DNA from: Gammaproteobacteria bacterium
GTDB lineage: Bacteria; Pseudomonadota; Gammaproteobacteria; Steroidobacterales; Steroidobacteraceae
DNA length: 64,000 nucleotides
Direction: 5' to 3'
NCBI GenBank assembly: GCA_016874555.1
Contig: VGTW01000001.1
Coordinates: forward strand, 1 to 64,000
Under the pieces are notes generated by a model. The model was not told where the DNA came from. It made no database searches and saw only the letters and a program-made list of their open reading frames with translations. Below, piece after piece: positions 21,906 through 35,615 of this stretch. Position 1 is the first letter of the stretch. Each line of letters begins with the position of its first letter. Both the position numbers and the translations under genes were made by a program.

Positions 21906-22257
21906 TCAGCTAGACAGTGTGATGCTGGCGAGACCCCGCCGCGCTCCCGGTCGCGGCGAGTGAACTTTAGCGCCCTGCACCTCGATTTTTTGCACGAGCG
22001 CCTGCGCCGCCTGCCGCTCGTAGTGCATTAAGCACTCGGACGGATGGTTGGCAAACAAACCGTACCATCGCAGCAAGTCCGCTTGATCACCATGGGCCGA
22101 CAGTCCGCCGACGGTGTGCACTTTGGCCACGGGACGGATAAGTTGACCGTGGATGTGCACCTGCGGCTCGCCATCGACACGAGCTCGACCGAGGGTACCG
22201 CGGGCCTGAACGCCAGTCATCATCACATGGCAGTCCGGGCGTTCGAGATTGTGCACA
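21906..22257 (-). pseudogene. C-terminal remnant of beta-CASP metallo-beta-lactamase-fold exonuclease
   Basis: HNLERPDCHVMMTGVQARGTLGRARVDG...KVHTVGGLSAHGDQADLLRWYG; remainder of gene found at 26441-27437. Confidence 0.82.
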
Positions 22258-22494
22258 GGCGCTCGAGAGCGCGAAACGTCTGGCCGATCAAAATCGGGTT
22301 ACTCGAGTCGCGGTGCCCGACATCTCGATGGGCATTTATGGTTATCCCGTCGAGGAGGCGGTCCCCATGCTCGCTGAAAAAGCGCTTTGGCTTACGAGTG
22401 CGATGGTTCATCTATAAAGAGATCCGCTTCATGCTCTTTGAGTCCGCGCTATGCGACCTCTTCGAGCGGACGCTGCGCGGGCTCCTCGAACCAG
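22256..22494 (+). pseudogene. C-terminal remnant of macro-domain (ADP-ribose-binding) protein
   Basis: QALESAKRLADQNRVTRVAVPDISMGIYGYPVEEAVPMLAEKAL, then frameshift into EIRFMLFESALCDLFERTLRGL. Confidence 0.7.
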
Positions 22495-23532
22495 TCGATG
22501 ACGGGTCGCCGAGTAAATCGCTGCTCTCTGATCTCTGATTTGCCGAGCGCTTCCCAAAGCTCACCGTTCGGGCCGATGAGAGCGTCGGGTGCGACTACTG
22601 TACGCATGATGGCATCGCCGGATTCGGGCACCTCTACGATCGCAAGTCCCTACGATAACCAAACTTTGTATTCGCCTGGTACTTGCCACCGCGCGCACCG
22701 CGGTGAGTCTTTCGTCGCAGGGCGACTCTCAAAGTCCGTCGCCGTCGTGAGTGTCTCGAAAGTGTCGGTCATGAGGCGGACCCACTCACGGTCGTGTCGT
22801 AGTAAGCCTTGAATGAATCGCTCGTAGCAGTGTCCGGTAGCGATAAGCGGTAACGGAGTCTTGCTGCGTGGCGAGCGATGATGGCACCGCTCTATAGAGA
22901 AACACATCAGGTGATAGAGGTCATCGTTTTCGTGGGTTGCAACAAACCCCTGCGCTGATTTTTTTTTAGGGCCGGCGAGGATGACTCGACCCTCACCAAA
23001 CAGGGCGAGCAGATCGGCGTGGGTTTGCCGAACACGAGGTCCAAACCGACGCGGATTTCGTTGGATTTTCCAATTCGTCCGGCGTTCATCGACTCGACGG
23101 TCTTCGGCGCGTCGCAGACCGCGGGTGTGGGTGTCGGTGACGCTGCAATCGGGGAGGTGAATCATCGGAGCCTCCGGGGGTAAGCGTGACAGAGCTAATA
23201 GTCAATCGGGATACCCCTCGGCTGGATCAAAGAATGACCCAGCCGAGGGATTTTGGTTGGCCGTTACGGGTGAAGGCGCTGAGATGAACCACCTGACCCT
23301 CGTGGATCAGCACAGCGCCCAGGGTGTCCTCGCTTTCGATGCGCTAGTCTTCGCCAAAGCCGAGCGCGGGTTTGCGCAACACGGGAAGCTTCTCCAAGGT
23401 CGCCAAGAACTGCTGGATCTCGGCGGCGGTGGCCATACCGCGCTGCACAAATGGCTCAAGCCTTTGCCGCCGACAAGACGAGGATGACAAAATGAAACAA
23501 TCTCTTTTATAGCGGTTTGCAGGGGCGTGCGA

Positions 23533-23658
23533 CCCGGAGTAGACAGTAGTTCAGTGCCAACATCAGGCGCGATGATAAAAAGCATTGTGAAATCAGGCTT
23601 GCTGGCAAAACACCCTGCCAGATCCTTTTTCTTCCTGCCGTCTACCGTCTACTCCGGG
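23533..23658. repeat. Inverted repeat, 17-bp arms (CCCGGAGTAGAC[A/G]GTAG), 23533-23549 and 23642-23658
   Basis: One mismatch between arms; lies just upstream of the three-gene operon. Confidence 0.75.
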
Positions 23659-23716
23659 CCGCATGGACCTGATATTCGCTATATGTTGCGCGTGAGCTTC
23701 AAGTGAGGAAACCAGG

Positions 23717-24499
23717 ATGGACTATTTTATTGTCAGATCGTTCGATCACGTGGGCTATTACGAAACGCGCCTGGTGTTGTTGCTCATTGGTCTCGCGCTG
23801 GTGACGTATGCCGCCGTACGCAAGCGCGATTATCGTTACGCCCTCGCCTTTGCCAGCGGCGTGGTGTTTCAGAGCTTGCTGGAATGGCTTCTGGCGGCGC
23901 TGGGCTTGCGCGGCAGGAATTACAGCCTGTCGCTTTTGGGCGTAACGTTTTCCGCGACGTGGTCGATTGTCTGGCAGGGGCTGGCCGAAGGCGGCATCCT
24001 GAGTTTGATGGCGTTCTGGTTCGCTGACTTGTTTCATTTTTCCAAAGATCAGGCCGCCTTGCCGCGCCGCGCGTTTTACGCCGTGTGCGTCGTGATCGTC
24101 GTCCTGGCTGGCGCGGTAGGCGTCATGGCGCGCGGGCTGCCCATCAGTTCGCCGCGTCCGATGTTTGCGCCGCTGCCGATGACCATCTCTGTCGTGACCA
24201 TCGCGGTTTCGGCGCTGTTGATCTCCCTCAAGGGCTGCACGGGTTGGCGCGCTCTCGGCTGGTTTTATCTGGGTCTGCTGGTTTATGTCGTGCTGACGTT
24301 TGAACCGCTGCATGTGCTGGGCGCGCGATACGTCGCGGTGCGCACCGCCGAAGGCGGTTTCGCCGCCGCGCCGTGGTTGCCGCAAATCGGCCTGATGCTC
24401 TATTCCCATCTTTACGAAGTCGCGGGCGGGAAGATTTATTACTTCGTTGTCCCGTATGTGCTGGGTCTGCTGAACAGTAAAGGAGGAAAACATGCCTGA
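23717..24499 (+). CDS. Multi-pass membrane protein of unknown function
   Basis: 260 aa, about 7 hydrophobic segments; overlaps the downstream hydrolase start. Confidence 0.75.
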   Translation: MDYFIVRSFDHVGYYETRLVLLLIGLALVTYAAVRKRDYRYALAFASGVVFQSLLEWLLAALGLRGRNYSLSLLGVTFSATWSIVWQGLAEGGILSLMAFWFADLFHFSKDQAALPRRAFYAVCVVIVVLAGAVGVMARGLPISSPRPMFAPLPMTISVVTIAVSALLISLKGCTGWRALGWFYLGLLVYVVLTFEPLHVLGARYVAVRTAEGGFAAAPWLPQIGLMLYSHLYEVAGGKIYYFVVPYVLGLLNSKGGKHA

Positions 24500-25364
24500 A
24501 TTCAGGTTTCAAAACTGGCGAATCAATTACGTCGAAGCCGGGCAGGGCGAGCCGCTCGTCTTTTTGCACAACGGCGGTAACGATCATCAAATCTGGGAAC
24601 ATCAGCTTGCGCATTTTGCCGCGACACATCGCGTTATCGCCACCGATCATCTGGGCTTTGGCGCATCCGACAAGCCGCGGGTTGAATTGACGTTGCCGCT
24701 GTATGGTGAAATGGTGGCGGCATTGGTGGACGAACTCGCGCTTGCGCCGGTCACGCTGATTGGCAATTGCATGGGCAGCGCGATGGCCTTTCATTACACG
24801 CTGCAACATCCTGACAAAGTAAGGCGATTGATCTTGTGCAACATTACATCGGAAAAGATTCTGCTGGCAGGGCCACTCGGCGCCGTGTATCAGCAATTCG
24901 CCGCCAGCAGGGAAGGCCGCGATGCTTACAGTGCGCAGGTCGAAGCAACAGGCTTGCCGCGTGAGGAAACCGACCGGCAATTGCGTTCGCAATACGGCGC
25001 AACGCCGCCCGACGATCCGGCGTTCAGCGATTACATCTTTGCCTTGTGTAACAGTCCGGGACAACAACGTTCGCTGTTCAATGTACTCTCGAATTTCGAT
25101 GATTACCGCACGCCGGATGCATTCATCCTGCCCGCCAACTTTCCACCAGCCTGCGTGATCTGGGGGCAGGAGAACTTCATTCTGCCAGCCACGGCGGGCG
25201 AAGAGTTCTGCACTCGGTTACAACCCGCGCGGCAGGAATTTCTGCCGGGTTGCGGGCATTTGCTGATGCGCGAAAAACCGGCAGAGGTGAATCAACTCAT
25301 GGCCGCTTTTCTGGCAACTCCTGCCACCCAGGCTGCTGATATGACCAGCGGCCTGAAAGGATAG
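24492..25364 (+). CDS. Alpha/beta hydrolase
   Basis: GEPLVFLHNGGNDHQIWEHQL, DHLGFGASDKP, LIGNCMGSAMAFHY (nucleophile elbow with Cys), C-terminal GCGHLLMREKP. Confidence 0.88.
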   Translation: MPEFRFQNWRINYVEAGQGEPLVFLHNGGNDHQIWEHQLAHFAATHRVIATDHLGFGASDKPRVELTLPLYGEMVAALVDELALAPVTLIGNCMGSAMAFHYTLQHPDKVRRLILCNITSEKILLAGPLGAVYQQFAASREGRDAYSAQVEATGLPREETDRQLRSQYGATPPDDPAFSDYIFALCNSPGQQRSLFNVLSNFDDYRTPDAFILPANFPPACVIWGQENFILPATAGEEFCTRLQPARQEFLPGCGHLLMREKPAEVNQLMAAFLATPATQAADMTSGLKG

Positions 25365-25368
25365 CTCC

Positions 25369-26310
25369 ATGAAAAGTCATGTTTTGCGCCTATTGTCGCT
25401 GGGGCTTGGTTGTGCGCTTTATGGCCTGACGTTGCAGGCACAGCAAACTGCCGAGGTCACAGGCGAAATCGAATCCGGCGGAATAAAACGCACGTTCCTC
25501 TTACATCTGCCTGCGTCATCGCCGAAAGGAAAACCGCTGCCGCTGGTCATTGCGCTGCACGGTGGCGGTGGACAAGGCAAAGGCATTGTCAAACTGACGG
25601 GACTCAATGAACTCGCGGATCGGAACAACTTCATTGTCGTCTATCCCGACGGCATCGAGCGCAATTGGAACGATGGCCGTTCGACCGTGCGGCGCAGAGA
25701 CGTAGACGACGTGAAATTCCTCGGCGAACTGATCGAGCATCTGGCGAAAACTTATGGCATTGACCGGCAGCGTGTGTATGCGACGGGTATCTCAAACGGC
25801 GGGATGATGAGCCTGCGTCTGGCCTGCGAGTTGTCCGACAAGATCGCCGCCATCGCCAGCATCGCGGCCAATCTGCCTGCCGAATTGCAGCCGCGCTGTC
25901 GCCCCGCACGACCGGTTTCTGTGCTGATGATTTCCGGCACGGCTGATCCGCTGATGCCGTTTGGTGGCGGCGACATCGGGACGATGGGGGGACGTGGGAT
26001 GGGCGGCAAAGTGATTTCGGCACAGGAAACCGTCGCGTTCTGGGCCAAAGTAAATCGTACCGCAACGAAACCCGTCGTCACTGATTTGCCCGACGTTGAT
26101 CCAAACGACGGCATGCGCGTGCGCCGCGAAGTATTCGGCAAGGGCGCGCTGAACAGCGAGGTCGTTTTCTACACGATCACCAACGGCGGGCATACGTGGC
26201 CGGGTGGATTTCAATATCTGGGCGAAGCGATCATCGGCAAAACGTCGCGCGAGCTGAACGCTTCCGCCACAATGGGGGAATTTTTCGCGCGGCACAAACG
26301 CACGTCATAA
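25369..26310 (+). CDS. PHB depolymerase/feruloyl esterase-like secreted hydrolase (LpqC-like)
   Basis: Signal peptide; PLPLVIALHGGGGQG, YATGISNGGMMSLRLACELSDKIAAIASIA, TNGGHTWPGG. Confidence 0.9.
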   Translation: MKSHVLRLLSLGLGCALYGLTLQAQQTAEVTGEIESGGIKRTFLLHLPASSPKGKPLPLVIALHGGGGQGKGIVKLTGLNELADRNNFIVVYPDGIERNWNDGRSTVRRRDVDDVKFLGELIEHLAKTYGIDRQRVYATGISNGGMMSLRLACELSDKIAAIASIAANLPAELQPRCRPARPVSVLMISGTADPLMPFGGGDIGTMGGRGMGGKVISAQETVAFWAKVNRTATKPVVTDLPDVDPNDGMRVRREVFGKGALNSEVVFYTITNGGHTWPGGFQYLGEAIIGKTSRELNASATMGEFFARHKRTS

Positions 26311-26336
26311 CAGCACCCCGATTATGGGTAGATTGT

Positions 26337-26359
26337 GGGACAAGATGGCATCTTGTCCC
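26337..26359. repeat. Near-perfect palindrome GGGACAAGATG-G-CATCTTGTCCC
   Basis: 11-bp arms directly after the hydrolase operon; possible terminator or dispersed repeat. Confidence 0.6.
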
Positions 26360-26377
26360 GTCAGGGACTAAACCAAT

Positions 26378-26440
26378 ATGCCAACCTGCTCTTCTCTTTC
26401 TCGTCGCCAAATGCTCGGCTTGACAAGCGGCGCATTGGGC
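26378..26440 (+). pseudogene. Truncated 5' end of a Tat-signal protein gene
   Basis: MPTCSSLSRRQMLGLTSGALG then reading enters sequence antisense to the beta-CASP pseudogene at the GTGCACA junction. Confidence 0.6.
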
Positions 26441-31484: not shown

Positions 31485-32525
31485 TTAAAAAATGCGTACT
31501 AATTCGTAGATCGACAGTCGACCGTTACGCTCACCCGCTGCCACGAAGCGTCCGTCCGGCGACCAGCGCAAGCAAGTGGGCTCAGCCGCCGTCAGCTGTG
31601 CATCGAGCGCCGTGGTGGTCTTGCCCGGCAACCACAAAGATAATCGCCAATCGCGCCCACCCGTGACGAGATAGTTGCCGCCAGGCTGAAAAGCGAGACA
31701 CTCGATACGGTCAGTGTGCCCCCGAAGTTGCAAAGGACGCGAACCTTCCGGTCCCTTGTCGCCGAAATCCCAAAGCACGATCTGCTCGTGAGCGGCGGTG
31801 GCGAGATAACGCGAATCACCACTCCAACTCATGCCGTCAACTCGCCCTGGATAACCGCGCATCTGCGAATCACGCCCGGTGGACAAATACCAGAAATGTA
31901 CCGTGCCGTCCTGCGTGCCGGTCGCCAGAAAACGGCTGCTGGGACTGAATGCTGCCGTCAGGCATGGCGCGGACCACTTGTAATGCCGCAACTGAAAGCG
32001 TGGCGGCTCAACCCGATGTACGACCAGACCGCCGTTCATGGCCGCTGCGAGGTCACGTCCGGGTTTGTCCCACCCCAGCGCCGTTACCGTCGATGCGAGC
32101 GGCGCGAATGTATGTTCGACCACCAGCGACGACGCCCACAAAGAAATCTGCTTGCCCGTAGCGGTAGCCAGTCGCCTACCATCGGGCGACCAAGCAAGCG
32201 CCGTCGTCCAGTTCATCGATGGTCGCTGTTGAGCAACAAGAGCGCCCTCGGCATCAAATAGTGTGATCCGCGAATCTTGTCCGCTGCTCGCGAATGCGCT
32301 GCTACCGGGCCGCCAGGCCACGGCCAGCGTACCCATTCCGTGCTGGCCGATTTCGCGCGCCCCGAGTGCAGACTCGCTGCGCTTGACCAAAAAAACTTTC
32401 CCCTCACCACCCGCCACAGCGAGCCGCATCGTATCCGTCGACCAAGCGATATCAACAATATAATCGTCGAGCTTGAGCTCGCCGCGCAGTACAAGGATCG
32501 CGTTCGGCGTTTTCACGCGAGACAC
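31485..32525 (-). CDS. WD40-repeat protein
   Basis: Repeated beta-propeller blades (e.g. LQLRGHTDRIECLAFQPGGNYLVTGGRDWRLSLW); overlaps upstream COG0523 gene. Confidence 0.88.
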   Translation of the reverse strand: MSRVKTPNAILVLRGELKLDDYIVDIAWSTDTMRLAVAGGEGKVFLVKRSESALGAREIGQHGMGTLAVAWRPGSSAFASSGQDSRITLFDAEGALVAQQRPSMNWTTALAWSPDGRRLATATGKQISLWASSLVVEHTFAPLASTVTALGWDKPGRDLAAAMNGGLVVHRVEPPRFQLRHYKWSAPCLTAAFSPSSRFLATGTQDGTVHFWYLSTGRDSQMRGYPGRVDGMSWSGDSRYLATAAHEQIVLWDFGDKGPEGSRPLQLRGHTDRIECLAFQPGGNYLVTGGRDWRLSLWLPGKTTTALDAQLTAAEPTCLRWSPDGRFVAAGERNGRLSIYELVRIF

Positions 32526-33940
32526 GAGTGGAGTCCGGCTTCAAGTTTTTCACGATCGAGATTACGGCCAATGAACACCAAGGTATTTCGCCAGGTGGCT
32601 CCCGCAGCCCACAGCTGCTCGAGCTGGCCATCTAATATCATGTGTACGCCATGGAACACACAGCGTCGGGCTTCGCCCTCAAGCGAAATCACGCCTTTCA
32701 TGCGAAAAATATCGGTACCGCGGCTCTTCAGCAAATTAGACAGCCAATCATTGCGCTTCTGCGTTTCGAGTGAACGCAGATCGCTGATATCGATCGAGGA
32801 AATTTCCTCATCATGAGGATGCGAAGTAAAGGCCCGCTGCACGATGGGCTTCGCGCCTTCTGTGCGCAGATTGAACTCTGCAGGTGCATGCTCACAAAAA
32901 TTTGCATAGGTGCCAACAGCGGCAACATCGACAACGAAGTGATTACCCTTGTGATTCACATCGATGGGTTGCTGGGCGGGTGCGACTTTCAGCGAGCCCC
33001 CGCGAGCGACCGTCACCGCTTCTCCGGCAAACGCGCGGACTGGCGGCTCGATCGCTGCAGCGAGAGTTTGCTGGGTCGCTGCCGCGACTGTTAGCACTAC
33101 GAACCCAAGACTTTTGTCACGGGCATCCCCGTGATCGTCGTGGTTATCGCCACGCTTATGTTCGTACGAATGGTCATGACTGCAGCCGGGACCATGTTCA
33201 TGATGATGATGGGCCTGCGCCTCGGCGCCGGTGCGCAGCGTATGCTGTCCCACGGCCAGCTGATACACGCCCGCCCACTCGAGGGGATATTGCGGCCCTA
33301 GAAAAGAGCCGTCGACCGCCAGTGTACGCTGCAGGTCGGAAGCGCCGACATCCAGCACGCAATCGATGGATACATTCGCGTTTTGCGTACGGAAAATACG
33401 CGCGGTGCCGTTGATGGCGCGCACCTGACGCGCGACGCGCTCGAGTTCGGCTTCACCGACGGGGTCGGTTTTATTGAGCCTAATAACATCGACGAAGGCG
33501 ACCTGCTCACCCGCCTCTGTCATTTTATCGAAATGCTTCTCGATATATCGCGCATCGACCAGCGTGACGGTGGCATCGAGCAGAAACTGCTGCTTGAAGT
33601 TATCGTCCAAAAAAAATGTCTGTGCAACCGGACTTGAGTCGGCCATGCGGGTGGTTTCGATGATGTAGTCGAACTTGTCGCGACGCTTCAGCAGCTGTTC
33701 GAGAATGCGCAGCAAGTCGCTACGACCCGTGCAGCAGATGCGGCCATTGTTGGTCTCGACGATTTCTTCCTCGGCGACGATCACCAGCTGGTGAACCACG
33801 CCGACCTCACCGAATTCGTTTTCGATGACAGCGATGCGCTTGCTGTGATTCTCTGAAAGGACGCGATTGAGCAGGGTTACCTTTCCAGACTCCAAAAATC
33901 CCGTCAAGACGGTGACAGGCACCCTATCCATAGTAGTCAT
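32513..33940 (-). CDS. COG0523/CobW-family G3E GTPase (ZigA-like zinc-associated)
   Basis: VPVTVLTGFLESGKVTLLNRVL, VIENEFGEVG, NNGRICCTGRSDLL, His-rich HHHHEHGPGCSHDHSYEHKRGDNHDDH, C-terminal CobW domain. Confidence 0.9.
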   Translation of the reverse strand: MTTMDRVPVTVLTGFLESGKVTLLNRVLSENHSKRIAVIENEFGEVGVVHQLVIVAEEEIVETNNGRICCTGRSDLLRILEQLLKRRDKFDYIIETTRMADSSPVAQTFFLDDNFKQQFLLDATVTLVDARYIEKHFDKMTEAGEQVAFVDVIRLNKTDPVGEAELERVARQVRAINGTARIFRTQNANVSIDCVLDVGASDLQRTLAVDGSFLGPQYPLEWAGVYQLAVGQHTLRTGAEAQAHHHHEHGPGCSHDHSYEHKRGDNHDDHGDARDKSLGFVVLTVAAATQQTLAAAIEPPVRAFAGEAVTVARGGSLKVAPAQQPIDVNHKGNHFVVDVAAVGTYANFCEHAPAEFNLRTEGAKPIVQRAFTSHPHDEEISSIDISDLRSLETQKRNDWLSNLLKSRGTDIFRMKGVISLEGEARRCVFHGVHMILDGQLEQLWAAGATWRNTLVFIGRNLDREKLEAGLHSCLA

Positions 33941-33964
33941 ATCTGGTAGATGATAACTTAAGGT

Positions 33965-34459
33965 ATGGGCAAGCCTTTGGAGTACATGCCACACGATCAC
34001 ACAACACCCCATGATCATGCCGCCTGCATCGATCACGCGGTGCGCACAGCTGCGGACGTCTGCGTGCAGCGGGGTCTCAAGCTCACGCCCGTGCGTCGCC
34101 GTATTCTCGAGATTGTCTGGCGCGCGCACGGGCCGGTCGGCGCCTACGACATCCTGGCCGAGCTTGCCAAGGAGCGTGCTAAGGCAGCACCGCCCACCGT
34201 TTATCGCGCGCTCGACTTTCTGATCGATGCCGGGCTAGTACACCGCATCGATTCGATCAATGCCTTCATCGGCTGCGACAAACCGGCGCGCGCGCACATT
34301 GCGCAATTTCTAGTGTGCCGTAAATGTCACCGGGTCATGGAAATCGATGCGCCGGGCATCAATCGCTTGCTGGCAGAAAAATCTCTGGCCGCCGGATTTC
34401 GCATCGAACCGACGTCGCTTGAAATCAAGGGGTTATGCGGGGAGTGCGAAGACGCCTGA
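33965..34459 (+). CDS. zur: Fur-family transcriptional regulator, Zur-like
   Basis: LKLTPVRRRILEIVWRAHGPVGAYDILAEL, PPTVYRALDFLIDAGLVHRI, CRKCHRVMEI, GLCGEC; start could be 33989. Confidence 0.9.
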   Translation: MGKPLEYMPHDHTTPHDHAACIDHAVRTAADVCVQRGLKLTPVRRRILEIVWRAHGPVGAYDILAELAKERAKAAPPTVYRALDFLIDAGLVHRIDSINAFIGCDKPARAHIAQFLVCRKCHRVMEIDAPGINRLLAEKSLAAGFRIEPTSLEIKGLCGECEDA

Positions 34460-35150: not shown

Positions 35151-35615
35151 GTGAACGAACTACCACAACATTCGCAGGCGCTGGTCGCCCGGCTGCTCGA
35201 TGCCTATTGCGCACGAATTTGCCCGCCACTCGCGCGCAACACGGTGCTGATCGGCTATCGCATCGAGGGCGAACAGGTGGTGATCCACGAGCTGCGTCGC
35301 ATTCTCGGCGTCGCGGGCACTTGGGAGCCCGTACCTGTTGCCAGGTTTCGATATCGATCGAGCAGTGGCGGTTGGCTGCTTGATTATTTTGAGAATGGCG
35401 TCTGGCAGCGTTATCGTCCGCTGTTACACAGTAAAAGTTTTCTCGAGTTGCTGCGCGAGTTCGACCGGGATCCCGCCGGGATTTTTTGGAGCCGCCTCGA
35501 CGGCAAGAGTCTGCGCTGGTGCAGTGCGCGTGGGCGTTGCATCGACTGCGACCTGCGTTATAAGCAGGTGCTGGGTCTCGCTGCCCCACTCGCCGCGGCG
35601 GTAACCCTGATCTAA
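35151..35615 (+). CDS. DUF3024-like protein
   Basis: RYKQ-type C-terminus WCSARGRCIDCDLRYKQVLGL; family assigned from memory. Confidence 0.6.
   Translation: MNELPQHSQALVARLLDAYCARICPPLARNTVLIGYRIEGEQVVIHELRRILGVAGTWEPVPVARFRYRSSSGGWLLDYFENGVWQRYRPLLHSKSFLELLREFDRDPAGIFWSRLDGKSLRWCSARGRCIDCDLRYKQVLGLAAPLAAAVTLI

Follow-up and report, generated by a model that had tools for sequence, protein, structure and literature searches.

A WD40- and Zur-linked COG0523 gene with an open reading frame and lost constraint: a probable cryptic pseudogene in a gammaproteobacterial genome

We analyzed a stretch of 64,000 nucleotides (the window) at the start of contig VGTW01000001.1 of a gammaproteobacterial assembly (GCA_016874555.1), a metagenome-assembled draft of 219 contigs with 86.75% completeness and 5.2% contamination. 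On the minus strand, an open reading frame of 475 aa with an ATG at 33940 and a TGA at 32515–32513, containing neither stops nor frameshifts, encodes a COG0523 protein. It lies between a WD40-repeat gene and a divergently transcribed gene for a Zur-like regulator. The features of the locus are as follows.

31485–32516, minus strand: WD40-repeat gene, constrained; likely start GTG, overlapping the stop of the COG0523 gene (GTGA)
32513–33940, minus strand: COG0523 gene (CobW family, YjiA/ZNG1-like, WD40/Zur-linked), based on Pfam, branch omega and motif comparison
32519–32803, minus strand: CobW_C domain of the COG0523 gene (Pfam), with a branch nonsynonymous/synonymous ratio of about 1.4 by counting
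33125–33214, minus strand: His-rich loop, partly eroded
33464–33475, minus strand: NKTD guanine-specificity motif, kept, flanked by L154R and L160P
33647–33664, minus strand: Walker B IIETTR, with G98R and in-frame loss of a Val codon before Glu (relatives IIVETTG)
33731–33745, minus strand: metal motif GRICC, with C67R (relatives GCICC)
33875–33901, minus strand: Walker A GFLESGKVT, with G17E and T21V (relatives GFLGSGKTT/GFLGAGKTT)
33950–33961, no strand assigned: conserved ATGATAACTTAA/TTAAGTTATCAT in the putative shared divergent promoter, intact (from alignment)
33986–34459, plus strand: Zur-like Fur-family regulator, divergent and upstream of the COG0523 gene, with 1 of 73 genus-invariant positions changed

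Descent from the COG0523 family was supported by both profile domains (cobW, PF02492, 150 bits; CobW_C, PF07683, 76 bits; both far above the cut-offs) and by a syntenic orthologue with 77% identity in the sister species. Each of the NCBIfam equivalog models for YjiA, ZigA and CobW matched the protein below its cut-off. The top match among solved structures was E. coli YjiA (PDB 1NIJ, 4IXM; E value 9e-44, over residues 5–199 and the C-terminal domain), a protein of 318 aa which lacks the long His-rich insert of the window protein and keeps GFLGAGKTT and GCICC, whereas the window copy does not. The closest described group is COG0523 subfamily 5, which is WD40- and Zur-linked and has members in eukaryotes as well (Haas et al. 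2009, PMC2770081). The window gene resembles this subfamily in domain make-up, in the His-rich stretch and in its WD40 and Zur-like neighbors, but only in the window copy are the family-defining Walker A, Walker B and CxCC motifs broken.

A neighborhood of WD40 and Zur genes has been reported for subfamily 5 (PMC2770081), and we found that the Zur-like, COG0523 and WD40 genes were linked across the genus. The GTG was taken as the likely true start of the WD40 gene because the equivalent ATG or GTG is where the gene begins in congeners. The WD40 protein of the window was changed at 1 of 94 genus-invariant positions. The Zur-like gene is constrained too but appeared mildly relaxed on the window branch, with an omega of 0.31 versus 0.05 (p = 0.001), an estimate from few changes. 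Between the Zur-like and COG0523 genes, the conserved element reads TTA[C/A]GTTATCAT and, judged from the alignment, is a candidate operator or promoter. Orthologues of all three genes were undetected in two congeners with 1.4-Mb genomes (G002 and G008; at 83% completeness, absence is uncertain) that keep the other COG0523 subfamily, a pattern that suggests block loss of Zur, COG0523 and WD40 during genome reduction. The window lineage would then not be alone in its genus in having lost this function. In one congener (G006:C424:9837-10871), the WD40 match contained one in-frame TAG. Two congener contigs (G016:C105 and G019:C182) carried an extra COG0523 gene (approximately 44–45% identical) close to a second Zur-like gene; ZnuA and ZnuB lie on the same contig. 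ZnuA and ZnuB were undetected in the window's genome, as in most of the genus; since this included species with an intact COG0523 gene, loss of ZnuABC was rejected as a cause. Elsewhere in the window, approximately 4 kb (22256–26440) was absent from the sister contig (L111 around 2713–2717), where the flanks adjoin, apparently through an insertion in one species or a deletion in the other, and a small gene at 35151–35615 on the plus strand had a somewhat raised branch nonsynonymous/synonymous ratio (0.42, outgroup G007).

The initial annotation had pointed to an altered Walker A motif and a damaged CxCC. Both were borne out on the minus-strand reading frame: Walker A reads TGFLESGKVTLLN, which departs from the canonical GxxGxGKT, and NNGRICCTGR replaces the GCICC context, leaving two of the three Cys. 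However, this description understated the damage. Walker B (YIIETTR) no longer fits hhhExxG, and the switch region reads GEVGVV where relatives have GEVGVD. NKxD is preserved as NKTD at residues 156–159. The His-rich loop, described as retained, survives in part but is eroded (H269D, H272D, H274R); the whole protein contains 22 His, compared with 24 in the sister and 28–38 in other congeners. Among 112 near-universal positions, at which at least 95% of 92 homologues agree, the window protein deviated at 16, the next-worst homologue at 6 and the median homologue at none. Motif departures in this protein are far beyond chance. With Walker A, switch I, CxCC and Walker B all damaged, GTPase activity, judged from the sequence, is very likely weak or absent, as had been proposed. 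The companion suggestion of a different set of metal ligands was unsupported, as no re-tooled site was seen, changes accumulated near the neutral rate (omega 0.94) and invariant positions were hit as often as variable ones.

These residues might have characterized a whole subfamily, but none was found: the altered motifs were absent from the 80 closest outside homologues and from every congener copy covering the motifs, including the sister, and the homologues inspected, with two additional copies read over their entire length, had G[FY]LG[SA]GKTT and GC[IL]CC. In the gene tree, the window copy was placed beside the sister (G009) on a branch eight times longer (0.117 vs 0.015). This pairing, together with the normal dS to the sister, was inconsistent with horizontal replacement by a diverged allele. 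The same orthologue was matched once in the window's genome, although a second copy could be missing from an assembly that is approximately 87% complete. The search for a second, canonical COG0523 paralogue did find one, but it belongs to a different subfamily that was present in 23 of 24 genomes and so is no new substitute; replacement by this gene was rejected.

We examined selection on the gene by comparison with its relatives. Counted from the start Met, the protein was 77% identical to that of the sister (78% when the longer open frame was used), versus 92–96% for flanking genes. Its dS to the sister (0.164) was similar to that of most neighbors (0.15–0.19), but its dN was approximately 3–4 times theirs. 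Pairwise omega was 0.55, compared with a 99th percentile of 0.29 among 77 sampled genes that passed a third-position codon-bias filter; this genome comparison used sampled stretches, also of the sister and outgroup genomes. A few frames failing the filter exceeded the ratio of the COG0523 gene; these probably represent antisense shadows or DNA free of constraint. By parsimony, approximately 80 nonsynonymous and 28 synonymous changes fell on the window branch, and 8 and 21, respectively, on the sister branch. In a purpose-written MG94-like codon model with five taxa, branch omega was 0.935 for the window lineage versus 0.059 for the background (log-likelihood gain 61.5; LRT p = 1.3e-28), and the former did not differ from 1 (p = 0.81). 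Counting with varied outgroups gave nonsynonymous/synonymous ratios of 0.84–1.09 on the same branch. Nonsynonymous changes affected 39 of 243 genus-invariant codons (16%) and 14–21% of variable codons, whereas on the sister branch none of the 243 was changed; these codons were defined from copies other than the window's, the sister's among them. G>A/C>T changes prevailed on both branches (58 of 108 in the window lineage, 18 of 29 in the sister). The number of nonsynonymous codons (77) was slightly above the simulated neutral interval of 56–75, but the maximum likelihood test showed no such excess. An omega indistinguishable from 1 on the window branch, with invariant and variable codons equally affected, indicates complete loss of constraint on the gene.

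The intact frame was compared with what drift might have produced. When 108 substitutions of the observed types were placed at random, a mean of 2.3 stops arose, and none in 9% of trials. Intergenic DNA showed 39 frameshifting indels per 1316 substitutions, and 39 of 40 intergenic indels were not multiples of three. At this rate, which comes from intergenic DNA aligned with blastn and is possibly an overestimate, approximately 3.2 frameshifts were expected in the COG0523 gene, with a probability of 0.04 for none. The joint probability of zero stops and zero frameshifts was approximately 0.4% (0.004), a rough calibration for a gene that was noticed because it is open. The sole indel in the blastn-aligned part of the gene was one whole codon, and the length of the His loop also differed in frame between the compared copies.

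Based on orthology, conserved position, an omega near 1 on the window branch only and equal damage to invariant and variable positions, we consider the gene a unitary cryptic pseudogene whose frame is still open, and not a new kind of enzyme, with a probability of roughly 0.86. Domain matches alone would annotate it as a zinc-chaperone GTPase, but the selection analysis indicates that it is dead. Its ancestor would have been an ordinary Zur-linked COG0523 zinc-chaperone GTPase whose function was probably lost in the lineage of the window species alone, when it separated from the sister or shortly afterwards. From then on, amino-acid replacements would have built up as fast as expected under neutrality and destroyed Walker A, switch I, CxCC and Walker B, while the decaying gene still has neither a stop nor a frameshift; the frame may have survived by luck or as a side effect of translational coupling to the overlapping WD40 gene. 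The protein, if made, would neither hydrolyze GTP nor chaperone zinc. In Sodalis-type symbionts, intact-frame genes with dN/dS of at least 0.3 are read as relaxed but undisrupted, compared with a normal dN/dS of 0.04–0.2 for functional bacterial genes (PMC3914690). The window gene resembles those cryptic pseudogenes in having an intact ORF and a raised dN/dS without a disrupting mutation (PMC3914690). However, in Sodalis-type symbionts many genes decay together, whereas the window gene is one outlier among 77 sampled genes and its organism is not known as a symbiont. Genome-wide decay was also unsupported: apparent breaks were seen in 14 of 57 codon-biased sister genes checked, mostly near gene ends or from the choice of start, and few were internal.

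An artifact of sequencing, assembly or binning, which the initial annotation had allowed for, might be suspected in a genome as fragmented, incomplete and contaminated as this one, but it is very improbable. Random error would raise synonymous differences too, yet synonymous change of the COG0523 gene on the window branch (0.065–0.086) was within the range of its neighbors (0.03–0.11), whose nonsynonymous change was far lower. Flanking genes on the same contig had normal omega, gene order matched the sister, and the mutation spectrum of the window branch resembled that of the sister. Errors would ignore gene boundaries, and it is implausible that they were limited to one gene and caused no frameshift. 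Somewhat less remote, though still improbable, is a functional, GTPase-dead COG0523 protein that acquired a new role, such as that of a scaffold or of a zinc buffer based on the His loop, under changed or positive selection. This could account for the frame being open against the joint expectation above and for the slight excess of nonsynonymous codons over simulation, and it has a possible parallel in Mycobacterium tuberculosis Rv0106, a COG0523-like protein without GTPase motifs and with an altered CXCC, which is Zur-regulated and expressed (PMC2770081). Both genes are COG0523-like and Zur-linked, with GTPase motifs lost or altered and an altered CXCC; however, Rv0106 is a recognized divergent protein, whereas the loss in the window is confined to one young branch. 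Against a new role, the maximum likelihood omega was indistinguishable from 1, conserved and variable positions changed alike, His residues were lost from the His loop itself, and a fold under selection is unlikely to tolerate such radical changes as L160P, F201S, G98R and L154R.

The missing stops and frameshifts are no more than suggestive of frame maintenance, and a dead protein whose frame is nevertheless selected to stay open, as translation through the COG0523 gene would be needed for the WD40 start at GTGA or against polarity, is a possibility that we regard as rather unlikely, if clearly less so than a new role. Frame maintenance is a refinement of the pseudogene interpretation and not an exclusive alternative to it. 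If it is real, the likeliest reason would be the GTGA overlap, with ribosomes passing through to the constrained WD40 gene. The overlap was found in the window species, the sister and four other congeners, and as ATGA in one more; the WD40 gene is still constrained; and the one aligned indel kept the frame, unlike nearly all intergenic indels. On the other hand, many congeners have a gap at this junction with no overlap, the coupling is deduced from the overlap alone, and the statistics come from one gene that was ascertained as open.

With the cryptic pseudogene as the preferred interpretation, the COG0523 gene shows cleanly, in an environmental genome, what gene loss looks like while still in progress. 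If frame maintenance is true, a coding gene would have been demoted to a translated leader, in which the amino acids are unselected but the frame is still selected. The COG0523/WD40 pair lends itself to testing whether translation coupling can hold the frame of a dead gene open.
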